NCBI GenBank assembly: GCA_947581825.1
Contig: CANPVP010000005.1
Location: 1-64,000 of the forward strand
Direction: 5' to 3'
DNA length: 64,000 nucleotides
Source: an uncultured Clostridia bacterium
GTDB lineage: Bacteria; Bacillota; Clostridia; TANB77; CAG-508
Positions 54,870-60,116 of this stretch are shown piece after piece (position 1 is the stretch's first letter; every line of letters starts with the position of its first letter). The position numbers and the translations under genes were made by a program. A model generated the notes under the pieces. It made no database searches and was not told where the DNA came from. It saw only the letters and a program-made list of their open reading frames with translations.

Positions 54870-55190
54870 ATGGATTACGAAGTGATGATGAATGGAAATG
54901 TAAGAATAGGTGAGTATGCACCAGAATTTGAGGCTAATAGCACATTTGGTAATATATCTTTAAAAGATTTTAAAGGAAAATGGTTAGTTTTATTTTCACA
55001 CCCAGGAGATTTTACCCCCGTATGTACAACTGAAATGATAGCATTTTCTAATGCATATCCATACTTTCAAGAAAGAAATACAAATTTATTAGGATTAAGC
55101 GTAGATAGTAATCCTTCTCAAGAAGAGTTGCAAAAGTTACCAACAAAAATAGGACAAGCAATCACCTGCTATATAAAACATTATTATTAA
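54870..55190 (+). pseudogene. Peroxiredoxin, 5' part (interrupted by mobile element)
   Basis: The N-terminal half of a 1-Cys (Prx6-type) peroxiredoxin: [33 protein letters not shown] with the peroxidatic cysteine (about aa 47), then [10 protein letters not shown]. From 55120 the reading frame enters foreign DNA ([10 protein letters not shown]...) and stops at 55190. The 3' part lies at 59685-60116. Joining 55120 to 59687 restores DSNPSHLAWVYDIYNRAG, the expected sequence. While the element is inserted the enzyme is lost, unless the truncated form has another use. Confidence 0.9.
55119..55143 (+). other. attL: attL of the 4.57-kb element
   Basis: Host sequence AGTAATCCTTCT, crossover CA (55119-55120), then the element half-site AGAAGAGTTGCA AAAGTTACCAA (55121-55143). 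Its arm AAAGTTACCAA (55133-55143) is the inverse of TTGGTAACTTT at the right end (59662-59672). Confidence 0.75.
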
Positions 55191-55244
55191 CATAAATTTC
55201 ATAAATAAAAACATAATACATTAATAGGTAAGCTAGCACTTCGC

Positions 55245-55330
55245 TTGACAAAATTAAAATTTGAATGTTATATTTAATATAGTGAATTTAATCTTAGATA
55301 ATCTATGGAGTTTAGGTCAATTTTTTCATC
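55245..55330 (+). ncRNA. Diverged abiF-type RNA, copy 1
   Basis: Promoter TTGACA (55245-55250) - 18 nt - TATATT (55269-55274). The RNA keeps the fold of copy 2: stem ATCTTAG (55291-55297) with TTTAGGT (55311-55317), a 13-nt loop, pseudoknot ATAG (55279-55282) with CTAT (55303-55306), then CAATTTTTT. Most stem positions and the pseudoknot differ from copy 2 but stay paired. It precedes the 336-aa gene, not a toxin. Confidence 0.65.
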
Positions 55331-55385
55331 AAACATAGAATTTACTTAGAATAGAAAATACAATATTAAAGGAGAGAATAAAAAG

Positions 55386-56396
55386 GTGAATAAAAAAATT
55401 ATAGTATTATTTATAGCAACAATAGTATTAGTTATATTAATTTTGCTAATCATTTTTTTGGGAAATATAAATTATAAACCTAATGAAACTAATAATATAG
55501 AAGGGAATATTGCAAACGATAGGAATATTAATAGTTTAGTTGTGGGGGATATTGTACAGTATATCCCTAATGGTTACTATATAGCAGAAAACCAATATAC
55601 TGGTTATGAAAAAAATCAAATATTAAATAGTCAAAATGATGATTTTAAAATAACTGAATGGTATGTTTATGAAATAGATAAAGAAAATGTAACATTAATA
55701 TCAAAAAATGCCACAAATGGAACTTTATATTTAAATGGTTATAATGGATATAATAATGCTGTAAAAATACTTAACGAAGCATGTAAGTCATTATATTCAG
55801 ATACCCAAAAGGGAATAACAGCACGAAGTATAAATATTACTGATATCGAAAATCATATTAATAAGGAATTTATTAAAGAATTCAATGAAGAATTTGATGA
55901 TGATGATTATCATGCATATGATATAGAACATAGTTATTATCCTAATATATACATTAATGAAAAAAAGAGTGTAATAGATAATAGAGAAAATTTTAATGGG
56001 CTAAGAAATAGTGAACAAACTGATTTTATTTTCGGATATACACAAGGAAAAGAATTGAAGCCATATAACACTGCAAGAGAAGGTTATGACATAGATAATC
56101 CATTATTTGACCAGATTAATAAAAAAATTATTATTGGTGATCAAACAAACAATTTTGACTTGCAAGATGTGTGGATTGCTTCACGTTCTTGCACGTGTAA
56201 TATTTATGATGGTTGCTATTTTCAAATATATAAATTAGAAGTACCTGTTGGAGATAGTAATGCAAGTGTATGGTCAGATACTCTATTTAGATCCGATAAT
56301 TCAAGTGATGAAGCGAATAATACAATTCGTCCAATAATTGAAACATCATTTTCTCATTTTACAAAATTAGAAAATGGGAAGTGGAAAATTAATTAA
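55386..56396 (+). CDS. Membrane-anchored extracellular protein between two abiF-type RNAs, 336 aa
   Basis: N-terminal anchor (VLFIATIVLVILILLIIFLG, aa about 5-24), Asn-rich linker, then a large outer domain with KENVTLISKNATNGTLYLNG, AVKILNEACKSLYS and ITARSINITDIENHI, a module seen in surface proteins of gut Clostridia (LNDACSxLY...ARSxxxEDIE pattern). C-terminal part: DVWIASRSCTC and RPIIETSFSHF. The start is GTG 55386 after GGAGAG. Function unknown. It is not a HEPN protein, so why it follows an abiF-type RNA is unclear; perhaps it was inserted between two RNA copies. Confidence 0.7.
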   Translation: MNKKIIVLFIATIVLVILILLIIFLGNINYKPNETNNIEGNIANDRNINSLVVGDIVQYIPNGYYIAENQYTGYEKNQILNSQNDDFKITEWYVYEIDKENVTLISKNATNGTLYLNGYNGYNNAVKILNEACKSLYSDTQKGITARSINITDIENHINKEFIKEFNEEFDDDDYHAYDIEHSYYPNIYINEKKSVIDNRENFNGLRNSEQTDFIFGYTQGKELKPYNTAREGYDIDNPLFDQINKKIIIGDQTNNFDLQDVWIASRSCTCNIYDGCYFQIYKLEVPVGDSNASVWSDTLFRSDNSSDEANNTIRPIIETSFSHFTKLENGKWKIN

Positions 56397-56486
56397 ATTT
56401 TATATTGAAATATATTACTAATGTATATAGTATAAATTTTATAAATAAAAATATAATACTATTAATAGATAAATTTAACATTTTAC

Positions 56487-56570
56487 TTGACAAAATCAAG
56501 ATTAAAATGTTATACTATCTATAGTAGATCGTACCTCGGATAACCTACGGGCCCGGGGTCATTTTTTTAA
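56487..56570 (+). ncRNA. abiF RNA, copy 2 (antitoxin RNA candidate)
   Basis: Promoter TTGACA (56487-56492) - 18 nt - TATACT (56511-56516). The RNA, about 45 nt from about 56523, has GTAG (56524-56527) forming a pseudoknot with CTAC (56545-56548) in the loop of the stem ACCTCGG (56533-56539) / CCGGGGT (56553-56559), then CATTTTTTT. That is the build of the abiF RNA motif known upstream of Abi_2 genes. The abiF ribosome site follows at 56576, so transcription through the terminator makes toxin mRNA. Confidence 0.85.
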
Positions 56571-56587
56571 ACAACAGGAGGTAAATA

Positions 56588-57517
56588 TTGGAAAAAATAT
56601 TTAGAACAATAGATGAACAAATAGAAATATTAAAGTCTAGGAATATTGTTATAGATGATTATGAAAAAGCATATAAACTTTTATCAAAAAATAATAATTA
56701 TTATTTAATTAATGGATACAAAAATTTATTTCTTAATAATACAAGTAAAGAAGAAAAATATATTAAAAATACAACATTAGAAGAAATCTATGCTCTATAT
56801 CAATTTGATAAAAATATAAAAATTAATTTTTTAAAATACTTACTACTAATTGAAAATGAAATTGATACTTATATTGCATATGAATTTTCAAAATCATATG
56901 GACATAAAGATTATTTAGTTCTTAAAAATTTTAATAATTCTAATTATAAAAAATCCCTTATTGAAAAATTTATAAAAGATGTTAATTTAGAAATTGAATA
57001 TCAATATAAAAATTCTAACGAAATGATTATGCACTATTTAGATAACTATAAGTATATTCCTTTATGGGTGTTAGTTAGAGTATTATCATTTGGAAAAATT
57101 TCAAAATTTTTTAGTTTAATGAAACCAAAAGAGCAAAATGCAATCAGTAGAAAATATAATTTAAGAATACATGAATTTATAATAATATTACATAATTTAA
57201 CATTAATTAGAAATGTTTGTGCACATGATGAAAAGCTATATGATATAAAAATGAAGAATAGAATTTCATCTACTATTTATCATAAAAAACTTAAGATTGA
57301 AAATAAGAAAGGTAATTATCAATATGCTACAAGAGATTTATTTTCAATAGTTATTTCTTTGAAATTATTATTAGAAGAGGAACAATTTAGAGCATTTTAT
57401 ACTGAATTAATAAAAAGTATTAATACATTAGAAAAAGAACTAAAAACAATATCGATTGATAATGTTTTATATAAAATGGGATTTCCTAAAAATTATAAAA
57501 AATTGTTAAAACTGTAA
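56588..57517 (+). CDS. abiF: AbiF/AbiD-type abortive infection protein (Abi_2, HEPN), 309 aa
   Basis: HEPN-fold RNase-type toxin. Family blocks: TIDEQIEILKSRNIVIDDYEKAYKLLSKNNYY at the start, YQFDKNIKINFLKYLLLIENEIDTYIAYEFSKSYGH (about aa 72-108), YIPLWVLVRVLSFGKISKFF (about 154-173) and the catalytic LIRNVCAHDEKLYD (about 205-218) with R-N-x3-H. The start is TTG 56588, 6 nt after AGGAGG. The short pseudoknot RNA directly upstream is its predicted antitoxin. Known activity of the family: phage-triggered growth arrest by RNA cleavage. Confidence 0.93.
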   Translation: MEKIFRTIDEQIEILKSRNIVIDDYEKAYKLLSKNNNYYLINGYKNLFLNNTSKEEKYIKNTTLEEIYALYQFDKNIKINFLKYLLLIENEIDTYIAYEFSKSYGHKDYLVLKNFNNSNYKKSLIEKFIKDVNLEIEYQYKNSNEMIMHYLDNYKYIPLWVLVRVLSFGKISKFFSLMKPKEQNAISRKYNLRIHEFIIILHNLTLIRNVCAHDEKLYDIKMKNRISSTIYHKKLKIENKKGNYQYATRDLFSIVISLKLLLEEEQFRAFYTELIKSINTLEKELKTISIDNVLYKMGFPKNYKKLLKL

Positions 57518-57540
57518 TGAAAAAATTTATATATGATGGA

Positions 57541-57720
57541 GTAAAATTTATTCTATTATTTCAAAATCCAATAATAAATTTATCTCTCGGAGAGCAAAAA
57601 AGGTTTTAGGAGATTTTCTCCTAAACAGCAAAAAGGGTGTCAAAACACCAAGCTGGCGAATATTGGGCATTAAAAAATATCCACTATTCGTTTTCTTTTT
57701 TTATACCCTTTTTTCTTTAT
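57541..57720 (+). ncRNA. Structured noncoding region downstream of abiF
   Basis: Several hairpins in a row: AAATTT...ATTATT with AATAAT...AAATTT (about 57545-57580), TTTAGGAGA/TCTCCTAAA (about 57605-57624), GGTGT/ACACC (57636-57649), and CGAATA (57657-57662) / TATTCG (57685-57690). An outer stem AAAAAGGGT (57630-57638) / ACCCTTTTT (57705-57713) encloses the last two. It may be the abiF terminator followed by a structured RNA. No coding frame. Confidence 0.45.
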
Positions 57721-57834
57721 TTGTCCCCATTTTGATTAAATTAAAAAAATCTATGTTATTTTATTAATAATTTAAGAATAAAAAAAGTTATTTTTCTAAT
57801 TAAATTTTAATAAAATTTACGAAGGTGAATAAAT

Positions 57835-57975
57835 GTGAAAAAAAATAACACAGATAAAAAAGAGCAAGTTTTTTGTATATTTAATAATGATAAAGAAAAT
57901 ATAAATATACAAATAGAAAAAAGTTTTATTGCATATTTAAAAGATTCAATTAAAGATAATAAAAAAGATTGCTGA
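57835..57975 (+). CDS. Small basic protein before the recombinase, 46 aa
   Basis: GTG 57835 follows GAAGGTG at a good distance; ATG 57833 hits a stop at once. The product KKNNTDKKEQVFCIFNNDKE then a lysine-rich helix has no recognised domain. A short gene of this kind often precedes TnpX-type recombinases, where it may regulate or couple expression. It is 61 nt before the recombinase start. Confidence 0.5.
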   Translation: MKKNNTDKKEQVFCIFNNDKENINIQIEKSFIAYLKDSIKDNKKDC

Positions 57976-57995
57976 TTTAAATAAATAACGTTATA

Positions 57996-58025
57996 ATTAT
58001 TCTGGCAGGTGATTGCTAGAATAAT
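57996..58025 (+). promoter_or_regulatory. Hairpin abutting the recombinase ribosome site
   Basis: ATTATTCT (57996-58003) pairs with AGAATAAT (58018-58025); GGGAGG starts at 58026. The stem could limit or couple translation of the recombinase with the upstream small gene. Confidence 0.45.
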
Positions 58026-58036
58026 GGGAGGTGCAA

Positions 58037-59650
58037 ATGAATTTTAGCAATCAAATTATGAATAATAAAATTTTTAAAGTAGGAATATATATACGTTTAT
58101 CGCGTGAAGATGGAGATAAATTAGAAAGTGATAGTATTTCTAATCAAAGAGATATTCTGCAAAGATATATAAAAGAAAATCAACTTGTTTTAATAGATGA
58201 ATACAAAGATGACGGAATATCTGGCACAACATTTGATAGACCTGATTTTAATAGAATGATAAATGATATTGAAAATAAAAGAATCAATATGGTAATTACC
58301 AAAGATTTATCAAGACTTGGAAGAGATTATATAAAAACAGGGTATTACATAGAAAACTATTTTCCAGAAAAAAGTGTTAGATATGTTTCTATATTAGATG
58401 GAATAGATACATTTTTAGAAAGTAACAATAATGATGTAACACCTTTTAAAGCTATTATAAATGATATGTATGCAAAAGATATTTCTAAAAAAATAAAAGG
58501 AGTTTTAAGAGAAAAAGAATTAAAAGGAGAATATCTGGGAAGTATTGCTCCATATGGATACAAAAAAAGTACTACTCAAAAAAATAGATTAGAAATCGAT
58601 AAAAGTGTATCTTATATTGTAGAAAAAATATTTGAACTATATTTACAAGGAAATGGACTGCAGAAAATATCGAATATTTTAGATAAAGAAGGAATTGATC
58701 CTCCAAGCAAATACTTTAATTTAAAACATCAAAGAACAACATGGAGTCCTAAAACAATAAGAGCAATTCTTGTAAATGAAGTATATATTGGAAATACTGT
58801 ACAAAATAAATGTGTTTCAGTTTCATATAAAGTAAAAAAGCGAAAACCTAAGGATGAAAATGAATATATAAGAGTAAAAAATACACATGAAGCAATTATT
58901 TCAAAGGAGAATTTTATAAAGGCACAAGAAATTTTAAAAAGTAAAAAAAGCCTATCAACTCCAAAACATGATGAATTATTAAAAGGACTAATCTTTTGCC
59001 ATAATTGTGGGAGACAACTTAGAATTTGTTATCGAGGTAAAACAAAAAAGATTGGCTATATAGATTGTAGTTTAGCAAGAGGAAAAGACAAAAAATGTAA
59101 AACATGTAACTATAATTACAATAAATTTGAAAATAAAGTGCTTAATAATATAAAAGATATAGTTAATGCCTTTTGTGATAAAAATGCTTTAAAATTGATA
59201 TATGAAAAAAATAAAGATAGTTATAATCAGCTTATTAAAAAAGAAGAACAAAAATTATTAGTTATAAAAAACAAAATACAAGATATATCAAAAAAACTAG
59301 ATAAAATGTATATGGATAATTTAAATGGAATGATAACAGACAATGACTATTTTAGATATTCGAAAGATTTTATAAAGCAACGAGAAAAACTTGAAAATAA
59401 CTGCAAAGACATACAAGATAAAATAAAAATATTACAAAATAAAATTCAAATAAATCAAGATAAAGAAAGAACTAATCAAGTCATTGAAGAATTTTTAAAA
59501 TTTAAAAATCCAAGTAAGAAAGTATTATTTGAATTAATAGATAAAATAGAATTAGATGAGTTTAAAAACATATACATATACTTTAATTTTTCAGAATTAA
59601 ATATTGTGAAAGAAGGGTTAAGCAATATGAACTTCATCCAAAGTGCATAG
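58037..59650 (+). CDS. Large serine recombinase (TnpX/TndX-like), 537 aa
   Basis: Integrase of the 4.57-kb element. The catalytic domain starts KVGIYIRLSREDGDKLESDS with the nucleophile serine in RLSRE (about aa 16-20), then TKDLSRLGRDYIKTGYYIE and the PFKAIINDMYAKDISKKIKGV helix. A zinc ribbon CHNCGRQLRIC...CKTCNYNYN (about aa 325-365) and a long coiled coil (about 390-480) follow. The start is ATG 58037 after GGGAGG. The gene ends 22 nt before the inferred attR half-site (59662), the usual place for a serine integrase. Confidence 0.95.
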   Translation: MNFSNQIMNNKIFKVGIYIRLSREDGDKLESDSISNQRDILQRYIKENQLVLIDEYKDDGISGTTFDRPDFNRMINDIENKRINMVITKDLSRLGRDYIKTGYYIENYFPEKSVRYVSILDGIDTFLESNNNDVTPFKAIINDMYAKDISKKIKGVLREKELKGEYLGSIAPYGYKKSTTQKNRLEIDKSVSYIVEKIFELYLQGNGLQKISNILDKEGIDPPSKYFNLKHQRTTWSPKTIRAILVNEVYIGNTVQNKCVSVSYKVKKRKPKDENEYIRVKNTHEAIISKENFIKAQEILKSKKSLSTPKHDELLKGLIFCHNCGRQLRICYRGKTKKIGYIDCSLARGKDKKCKTCNYNYNKFENKVLNNIKDIVNAFCDKNALKLIYEKNKDSYNQLIKKEEQKLLVIKNKIQDISKKLDKMYMDNLNGMITDNDYFRYSKDFIKQREKLENNCKDIQDKIKILQNKIQINQDKERTNQVIEEFLKFKNPSKKVLFELIDKIELDEFKNIYIYFNFSELNIVKEGLSNMNFIQSA

Positions 59651-59661
59651 TTAAAATTATA

Positions 59662-59686
59662 TTGGTAACTTTAGCAATGCTTCACA
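59662..59686 (+). other. attR: attR of the 4.57-kb element
   Basis: Element half-site TTGGTAACTTT (59662-59672) and AGCAATGCTTCA (59673-59684), crossover CA (59685-59686), then host TTTAGCATGG. The half-site matches the inverse of the attL half-site at 19 of 23 positions. Confidence 0.75.
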
Positions 59687-60116
59687 TTTAGCATGGGTAT
59701 ATGACATATATAACAGAGCAGGAGTAGAAGTTCCTTTTCCGATAATAGCAGATAGAAATGGAAGTATAGCTAGAAAGTATGGAATGATATCAAATAGCAT
59801 TGATAATACAGCAACTGTTAGAAATGTGTACATAATTGATGATAAAGGGATAATACGTGCTATACTAATTTATCCAATGGAAACTGGAAGATTCATTCCA
59901 GAAATTATAAGAATAATAGATGCTTTGCAATTTCATGATAAGAATAATCTTTCAACAGCAGCAAATTGGATGGTAGGAAATCCAGGAATAAGACCAGTTC
60001 CTAAAACATATAAAGAATTAACCGAAAGGGTAAATGATTTACAGAAAAATGATAATGGTATGAGTTGGTACTTAAGTTTTCAAAAAGATGTTAAAAAAAT
60101 AGAAGATAACAAATAG
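59685..60116 (+). pseudogene. Peroxiredoxin, 3' part
   Basis: Continues the interrupted Prx6-type gene in frame: HLAWVYDIYNRAGVEVPFPIIADRNGSIARKYGMIS, then VRNVYIIDDKGIIRAILIYPMETGRF and the C-terminal dimerisation part ending WYLSFQKDVKKIEDNK. It has no start signal of its own, so it should be silent while the element is present. Confidence 0.9.

Follow-up and report, generated by a model that had tools for sequence, protein, structure and literature searches.

A putative second class of AbiF-associated RNA precedes a HEPN toxin gene on a mobile element of a gut Clostridia bacterium

AbiF-RNA pairs are the proposed ancestor of CRISPR-Cas13, and Rfam has one RNA class for AbiF. In the consulted parts of the report on AbiF-Cd/RCd22, from a C. 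difficile prophage, the AbiF protein is toxic and is neutralised in cis and in trans by its upstream RNA, which carries two tandem motifs of the Rfam class RF03085 (PMC12373285). A second pair, PbAbiF/AbiFr, is represented by the structure PDB 8vz6 (PMC12737573, consulted in part). For AbiD1 of L. lactis pIL105, the sections of the source drawn on here describe a 50-nt transcript that ends just upstream of the gene and a phage protein that controls AbiD1 translation (PMC2661086). Within these portions of the literature, toxin binding and neutralisation by RNA are published for the RF03085 class only.

We analysed a stretch of 64,000 nucleotides (the window) from a gut Clostridia bacterium, comprising positions 1–64,000 of the plus strand of contig CANPVP010000005.1 in assembly GCA_947581825.1. 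It contains an abiF gene directly preceded by a predicted small RNA, here named class II AbiF RNA (Table 1). In anatomy, and in anatomy only, the locus is that of a type III toxin-antitoxin system, with one promoter, an RNA gene with a terminator and then a predicted RNase-toxin gene. It shares with AbiF-Cd/RCd22, as described in the consulted text (PMC12373285), the Abi_2 toxin, the upstream promoter, the small RNA and the terminator before the gene. The window holds a single RNA unit, while 13 of its relatives have two in tandem, as RCd22 does. Compared by description, the AbiD1 leader is likewise a short RNA with a terminator just before an Abi_2-type gene (PMC2661086, same sections). The consensus promoter named in the original prediction is present with 11 of 12 consensus bases, and its distance to the RNA is the same in 30 of 32 loci (window counted), all from the window's part of the family. 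The RNA ends were deduced from its start seven bases after the −10 element and from the T-tract, which gives a predicted transcript of about 45 nt.

Table 1 Features of the abiF locus and its element, in window coordinates.
Feature	Position	Strand	Basis or remark
ahpC-type peroxiredoxin, interrupted, 5' part	54870–55117	+	
Element, about 4,566 bp	55118–59683		ends uncertain by about 10 bp; compared with intact ahpC of relatives
Decayed second promoter and RNA copy	55201–55332	+	promoter 55245–55274; RNA relic 55277–55321
Cargo ORF, 336 aa	55386–56396	+	
Sigma-A type promoter	56487–56516	+	sequence; TTGACA 56487–56492, 18-nt spacer, TATACT 56511–56516
Predicted class II AbiF RNA	56523–56568	+	covariance models R1 and R2
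Pseudoknot 5' strand GUAG	56524–56527	+	covariation; core pairs 56525–56527
Lower stem 5' strand	56533–56539	+	pairing and covariation in relatives
Pseudoknot 3' strand CUAC, inside loop	56545–56548	+	covariation
Lower stem 3' strand	56553–56559	+	pairing and covariation in relatives
T-tract (T7), terminator end	56562–56568	+	sequence
Ribosome-binding site AGGAGG	56576–56581	+	sequence
abiF (Abi_2) HEPN protein, 309 aa	56588–57517	+	TTG start, intact ORF
HEPN motif R-N-V-C-A-H, residues 208–213	57209–57226	+	sole R-x4-H of AbiF
Large serine recombinase of element	58031–59650	+	
ahpC-type peroxiredoxin, interrupted, 3' part	59684–60116	+	

The original prediction linked this RNA to the abiF RNA motif. 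The Rfam abiF model, the check by which it proposed to be judged, gave no match, so the window RNA differs from the motif named there. RF03085 had no match in the window at its gathering cut-off (37 bits), none over 55150–58050 at E ≤ 10 and none in the genome of origin, and 14 control genomes in the same scan were equally silent. Elsewhere, the model exceeded its cut-off at four loci, namely L020 (38.1 bits), L166 (37.6 bits, the leader of AbiF in C. difficile phage phiC2) and the Bacteroidota AbiF leaders L188 (59.1 bits) and L189 (40.1 bits), and stayed below it at L028 (33.1 bits) and L037 (34.2 bits). The L188 protein and PbAbiF share 55% identity over 211 residues; this homologue of PbAbiF thus carries an RF03085 RNA, whereas the window carries the other class. 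Two covariance models of the window-type RNA behave in the opposite way. R1, built from 18 upstream hairpins (alignment A3), finds nothing at E ≤ 1 in L166, L020, L028 or L037, and R2 nothing above 7.1 bits in L188 or L189. The window RNA, a seed of both models, scores 50.9 bits with R1 and 55.1 bits with R2 at 56519–56563, and RF03085 matched none of 13 scanned loci (10 + 3) that carry window-type RNA. Because matches to RF03085 and to R1/R2 were mutually exclusive in the loci scanned, we assign the window RNA, from sequence comparison, to a second AbiF-associated class that is not listed in Rfam. Among 120 AbiF proteins placed in a tree, the five RF03085-type rows, three matched by the model and two labelled by eye, form one clade (100/98); some rows labelled NA preceded any RNA search.

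Both classes are short stem-loops next to abiF, which in RF03085 can coincide with the terminator (L188), and copies downstream of the gene occur in both, as in the second unit of L188 (1648–1707). RF03085 has a 6-bp stem and a 3-bp upper stem, with one unpaired base on the 5' side and six on the 3' side, whereas the window class has a 7-bp stem, a 2-bp upper stem, three unpaired bases on the 5' side and one on the 3' side, and a pseudoknot between loop and 5' flank. The pairing of AbiF with an RNA is itself known and the novelty lies in the RNA variant. The literature covered, consisting of the C. difficile paper, reviews and an older AbiD1 paper, contains no description of the window class in titles, abstracts or the sections consulted, and part of such a description may already be in print in the original PbAbiF work or in the publication that defined the abiF motif. 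The covariance model for class II reaches AbiF loci that Rfam misses, and a second class with a covarying pseudoknot and flexible placement would show an antitoxin RNA changing its shape while keeping its partner.

Folded as a single sequence, the window RNA is no more stable than its shuffles (z −0.38), so the case for the structure rests on its relatives. The window itself forms seven lower-stem pairs, one of them G-U, around a 13-nt loop. Across 72 distinct rows, with seeds preselected for pairing, the stem is 99% paired and all seven pairs show changes on both sides. The A3 seeds were chosen for at least six of seven stem pairs, and percentages on A3 and A4 therefore lean high. For this reason we built alignment A6 free of structural selection, from the last 66 bases before abiF in 32 close loci (29 distinct) aligned blind to structure, leaving out L041 (longer spacer), L054 and L066 (insertion), L083 (cut off) and, for a broken abiF, L069, L073 and L103. 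In A6, 95.5% of stem cells are paired, with both-side changes at two of the seven pairs. The predicted 7-bp stem and T-tract are both present in the window. In L054 and L066, a similar inserted stretch, by eye a small mobile repeat, places the RNA about 200 bases from abiF.

The GUAG/CUAC register of the pseudoknot ranks first by covariation and by pairing among 132 three-pair flank-loop helices, both on the 72 rows and on 31 thinned rows. Its inner pairs are kept in 94% and 85% of rows, and one of them appears as A-U, G-U, U-G and U-A. The register of the originally proposed 4-bp loop pseudoknot is upheld, with weak third and fourth pairs (67% and 38%). Pairing amounts to 71% of cells over four pairs and 82% over three; in A6, the three pairs form in 84% of cells with little variation. 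A different pseudoknot adjoining the stem, UCGU/ACGG, was rejected at 64% of cells paired, under the GUAG/CUAC register. There is likely an upper stem of two pairs, judging by columns 28–34 (paired in 66 of 71 rows) and 27–35 (44 of 71), of which the window forms only the first, and column 29 could take part in upper-stem pairing instead of the pseudoknot.

The protein half of the pair is readily placed. Window AbiF matches Pfam Abi_2 (PF07751) with 140.3 bits against a cut-off of 25.6 (E 1.2e-40) and PADLOC AbiD with 190.6 bits (1.1e-56). The HEPN R-N-x3-H motif of the original prediction is confirmed, since R208, N209, A212 and H213 are unchanged in all 31 aligned sequences. An AlphaFold model built on the 31-sequence alignment (pLDDT 94) superposes on PbAbiF (8vz6) with Z 25 and 2.1 Å over 280 residues, and the two proteins share the active-site motif. 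The proposed kinship to Cas13 is visible in the fold, as Cas13d (Z about 9) and Cas13b (Z about 6) are the second-best matches, with values that are moderate for a helical protein. Window AbiF differs from Cas13 effectors, which have two HEPN domains per chain, in being small (309 residues) with a single R-x4-H motif. Matches ranked below Cas13 were apparently unrelated and left unused. Measured against its nearest relative (L038, 96% identical), abiF has a dN/dS of 0.145. The modelled fold and the alignment make this protein a clear homologue of PbAbiF with invariant catalytic residues, and it is predicted to be an RNase.

We propose, with a probability of about 0.77, that the RNA and AbiF operate in the manner of a type III toxin-antitoxin system. 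Transcription from a constitutive promoter would yield mostly the RNA of about 45 nt, ending at its own stem and T-tract, and rare read-through would supply the AbiF mRNA. In the folded RNA, a short upper stem would top the 7-bp stem and the loop would pair with the RNA's own 5' end; in this form it would bind an AbiF dimer and block the HEPN RNase. That RNA in excess neutralises the toxin is proposed because of the anatomy together with the published AbiF-Cd/RCd22 case. If the RNA supply dropped, through loss of the element or take-over of transcription by a phage, AbiF would be freed, cut RNA and stop growth. If so, the unit would act as an antitoxin or in defence, as originally predicted.

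The pair resides on the small element of about 4.57 kb that had been predicted, with a large serine recombinase; its length follows from the ahpC halves, which meet at about 55117/59684, as shown by the intact copies of relatives. The two halves are the sole match in the genome of origin to a relative's intact protein, so no second copy of this ahpC-type peroxiredoxin is detectable there beside the one that the element interrupts. Among the abiF elements of relatives, two recombinases use two sites of the same ahpC (L038, L058 and L060–L063 vs L054, L057, L059 and L103); in the latter group the recombinase is only about 33% identical and ahpC is split near codon 48.

This setting raises the alternative that the pair serves the element, retaining it by stopping cells that lose it, rather than defending against phages. 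Such addiction is compatible with the type III-like mechanism at the molecular level and differs in purpose. RNA, abiF and recombinase are indeed direct neighbours in L038, L058 and L060–L063, with differing left-hand genes in the five inspected (L038, L060–L063), an adjacency that is no proof alone because these loci were fetched by abiF. We also searched 390 genomes of the family with the recombinase, scoring at most three candidates per genome, and obtained 20 loci at 67% identity or more (window included), 17 of which have the ahpC 3' half adjoining the recombinase. Five carry abiF, one an abiF fragment and one a MntA-HepT pair (L208); the ten others with at least 1.1 kb of upstream sequence have no abiF there, and three come without upstream sequence. 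Thus, abiF is optional cargo of the element, and on this account we halved the weight given to addiction. AbiF-type genes are, moreover, found on phages and have been linked to Lactococcus phage resistance (PMC12373285, in the consulted parts). We consider addiction unlikely. The notion of RNA, abiF and recombinase as the constant core of the element, drawn from the earlier, abiF-fetched loci, was abandoned given the minority share of abiF.

Distribution of the RNA units bears on a different alternative, in which the RNA is a leader attenuator only: the terminator hairpin would limit expression of the downstream gene in cis, possibly until a signal lifts the block, with no function of the RNA in trans. 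AbiF relatives occur in 6 of 56 related genomes and, at the level of the class, in 37 of 291 (own genome in both counts). The AbiF loci kept include at least 80 from genome contigs and 48 from viral contigs, the latter found with an alignment query; a single-protein query of the viral contigs gave no AbiF match. R1 located 78 units at 66 of 100 sources searched, 49 of them not seeds. R2 found a unit at 90 of 148 AbiF loci and none at the other 58; 66 of the 90 had fed R2 and 24 had not, and both models match their own seeds by construction. The 148 are the 163 sorted loci minus 15 (L130–L138, L140, L143, L148, L152, L154, L157), and some represent the same place reached twice (L004/L088, L014/L087). 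A well-supported clade of six AbiF proteins (L004, L005, L007, L094, L096, L097) has neither RNA class in the loci searched. This clade comes partly from the window's own family.

In 57 of the 90 unit-bearing loci the unit lies upstream only. In the window, stem and T-tract directly precede abiF, in keeping with an attenuator. Twelve others have two tandem upstream units, and L062 has two tandem units plus a third before a nucleotidyltransferase gene (Pfam Polbeta, L062 1775–2225). Two have the unit upstream of a broken abiF (L015, L103). Termination in cis is also described for RCd22, which cuts expression in this way (PMC12373285, consulted parts), and likewise for the AbiD1 leader (PMC2661086, consulted parts). 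The remaining placements are harder to reconcile with a mere leader. Five loci add a downstream unit in the same direction (L006, L008, L065, L099, L115), which in L065 heads a broken abiF copy. Ten add an antisense unit on the minus strand, over or next to the abiF 3' end (L075, L078–L082, L084, L086, L089, L092); nine of them, together with L118, make up a single clade of ten rows in the tree, most of which bear a Bacilli or Tenericutes label. L118 is the only row of this clade without a unit match, and the tenth locus, L079, was thinned from the tree. In L091, L111 and L119, all three members of one clade, the unit is downstream only. Since such a unit cannot be the leader of abiF, trans action is favoured, and the units after or antisense to abiF favour a trans-acting antitoxin over a plain leader terminator as far as sequence placement can tell. 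Furthermore, in the L009–L012 group the unit precedes a separate terminator and would itself be dispensable for termination, and the conserved, covarying loop and 5' flank are superfluous for a simple terminator.

Scanning genomes with the RNA models revealed units away from abiF. R1 gave 14 matches in 13 of 391 genomes, five of them seeds. Of the nine others, three lie directly before abiF (L176, L177, a fragment in L178), two (L179, L180) begin immediately behind an apparent abiF tail with which the contig opens, and for the remaining four (L182–L185) the stretch fetched contains no abiF. The RNA unit of L185 precedes a helix-turn-helix gene and an IrrE-type peptidase gene. R2 detected the RNA at E ≤ 1e-4 in at least 3 of 398 genomes of the phylum, a lower bound with 15 candidates scored per genome. 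A search of the leader DNA against phages returned 138 records at E up to 10, and those listed were partial and weak.

The MntA-HepT element, L208, lies in a genome where a different contig bears an RNA-abiF unit (L220); L208, L221 and L222 are on one contig (C29 of genome G1022). Its order is ahpC on the left, a promoter of the same kind as in the window, two tandem RNA units, a MntA-like nucleotidyltransferase, a HepT-like HEPN RNase (Pfam E 5e-17) and recombinase; the stretch fetched contains no abiF. The nucleotidyltransferase of L062 is related to that of the MntA-HepT pair. The leader thus appears to have moved in front of a second HEPN toxin (L208/L222), and this case and the four matches without a nearby abiF indicate that the association of the RNA with AbiF is not exclusive. 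The leader may have been captured to serve as promoter and attenuator, or else HepT is a further target of the RNA. A portable leader would be expected to produce exactly such cases, including the extra unit of L062, and the MntA-HepT element accordingly lowered our estimate for the trans-acting antitoxin from 0.8 to its present value and raised the attenuator by a small step. We still regard attenuation as the sole function of the RNA as improbable.

A broader reading can be put forward tentatively, as a conjecture we would not yet bet on: the short antitoxin RNAs used by HEPN toxins may fall into two or more classes that are unrelated or have diverged deeply. Class II would be a portable, self-standing RNA gene, able to occupy a place ahead of abiF, behind it, in both positions or antisense to its end, or to precede MntA-HepT in the same kind of element, and solo units that stay behind may shield cells from the toxin.

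Finally, that the RNA-abiF unit is a decaying, non-working relic is very improbable: it could draw on the decayed second copy 1.2 kb upstream and on the broken abiF copies with an RNA unit in relatives (the second copy in L065, L073, L103), but in the window ORF, promoter, ribosome-binding site, stem and pseudoknot are all intact, the low dN/dS argues against decay, and the 45-base RNA stretch is identical in L038. The decayed copy shares 72% DNA identity with the intact promoter and RNA (E 4.9e-13), and its RNA relic scores only 7.5 bits with R1 (E 1.3). It heads the unrelated cargo ORF, for which we found no known family and no relative in the compared AbiF loci. In the gap between abiF and the recombinase, two terminator-like hairpins are present on the minus strand (57605–57649).
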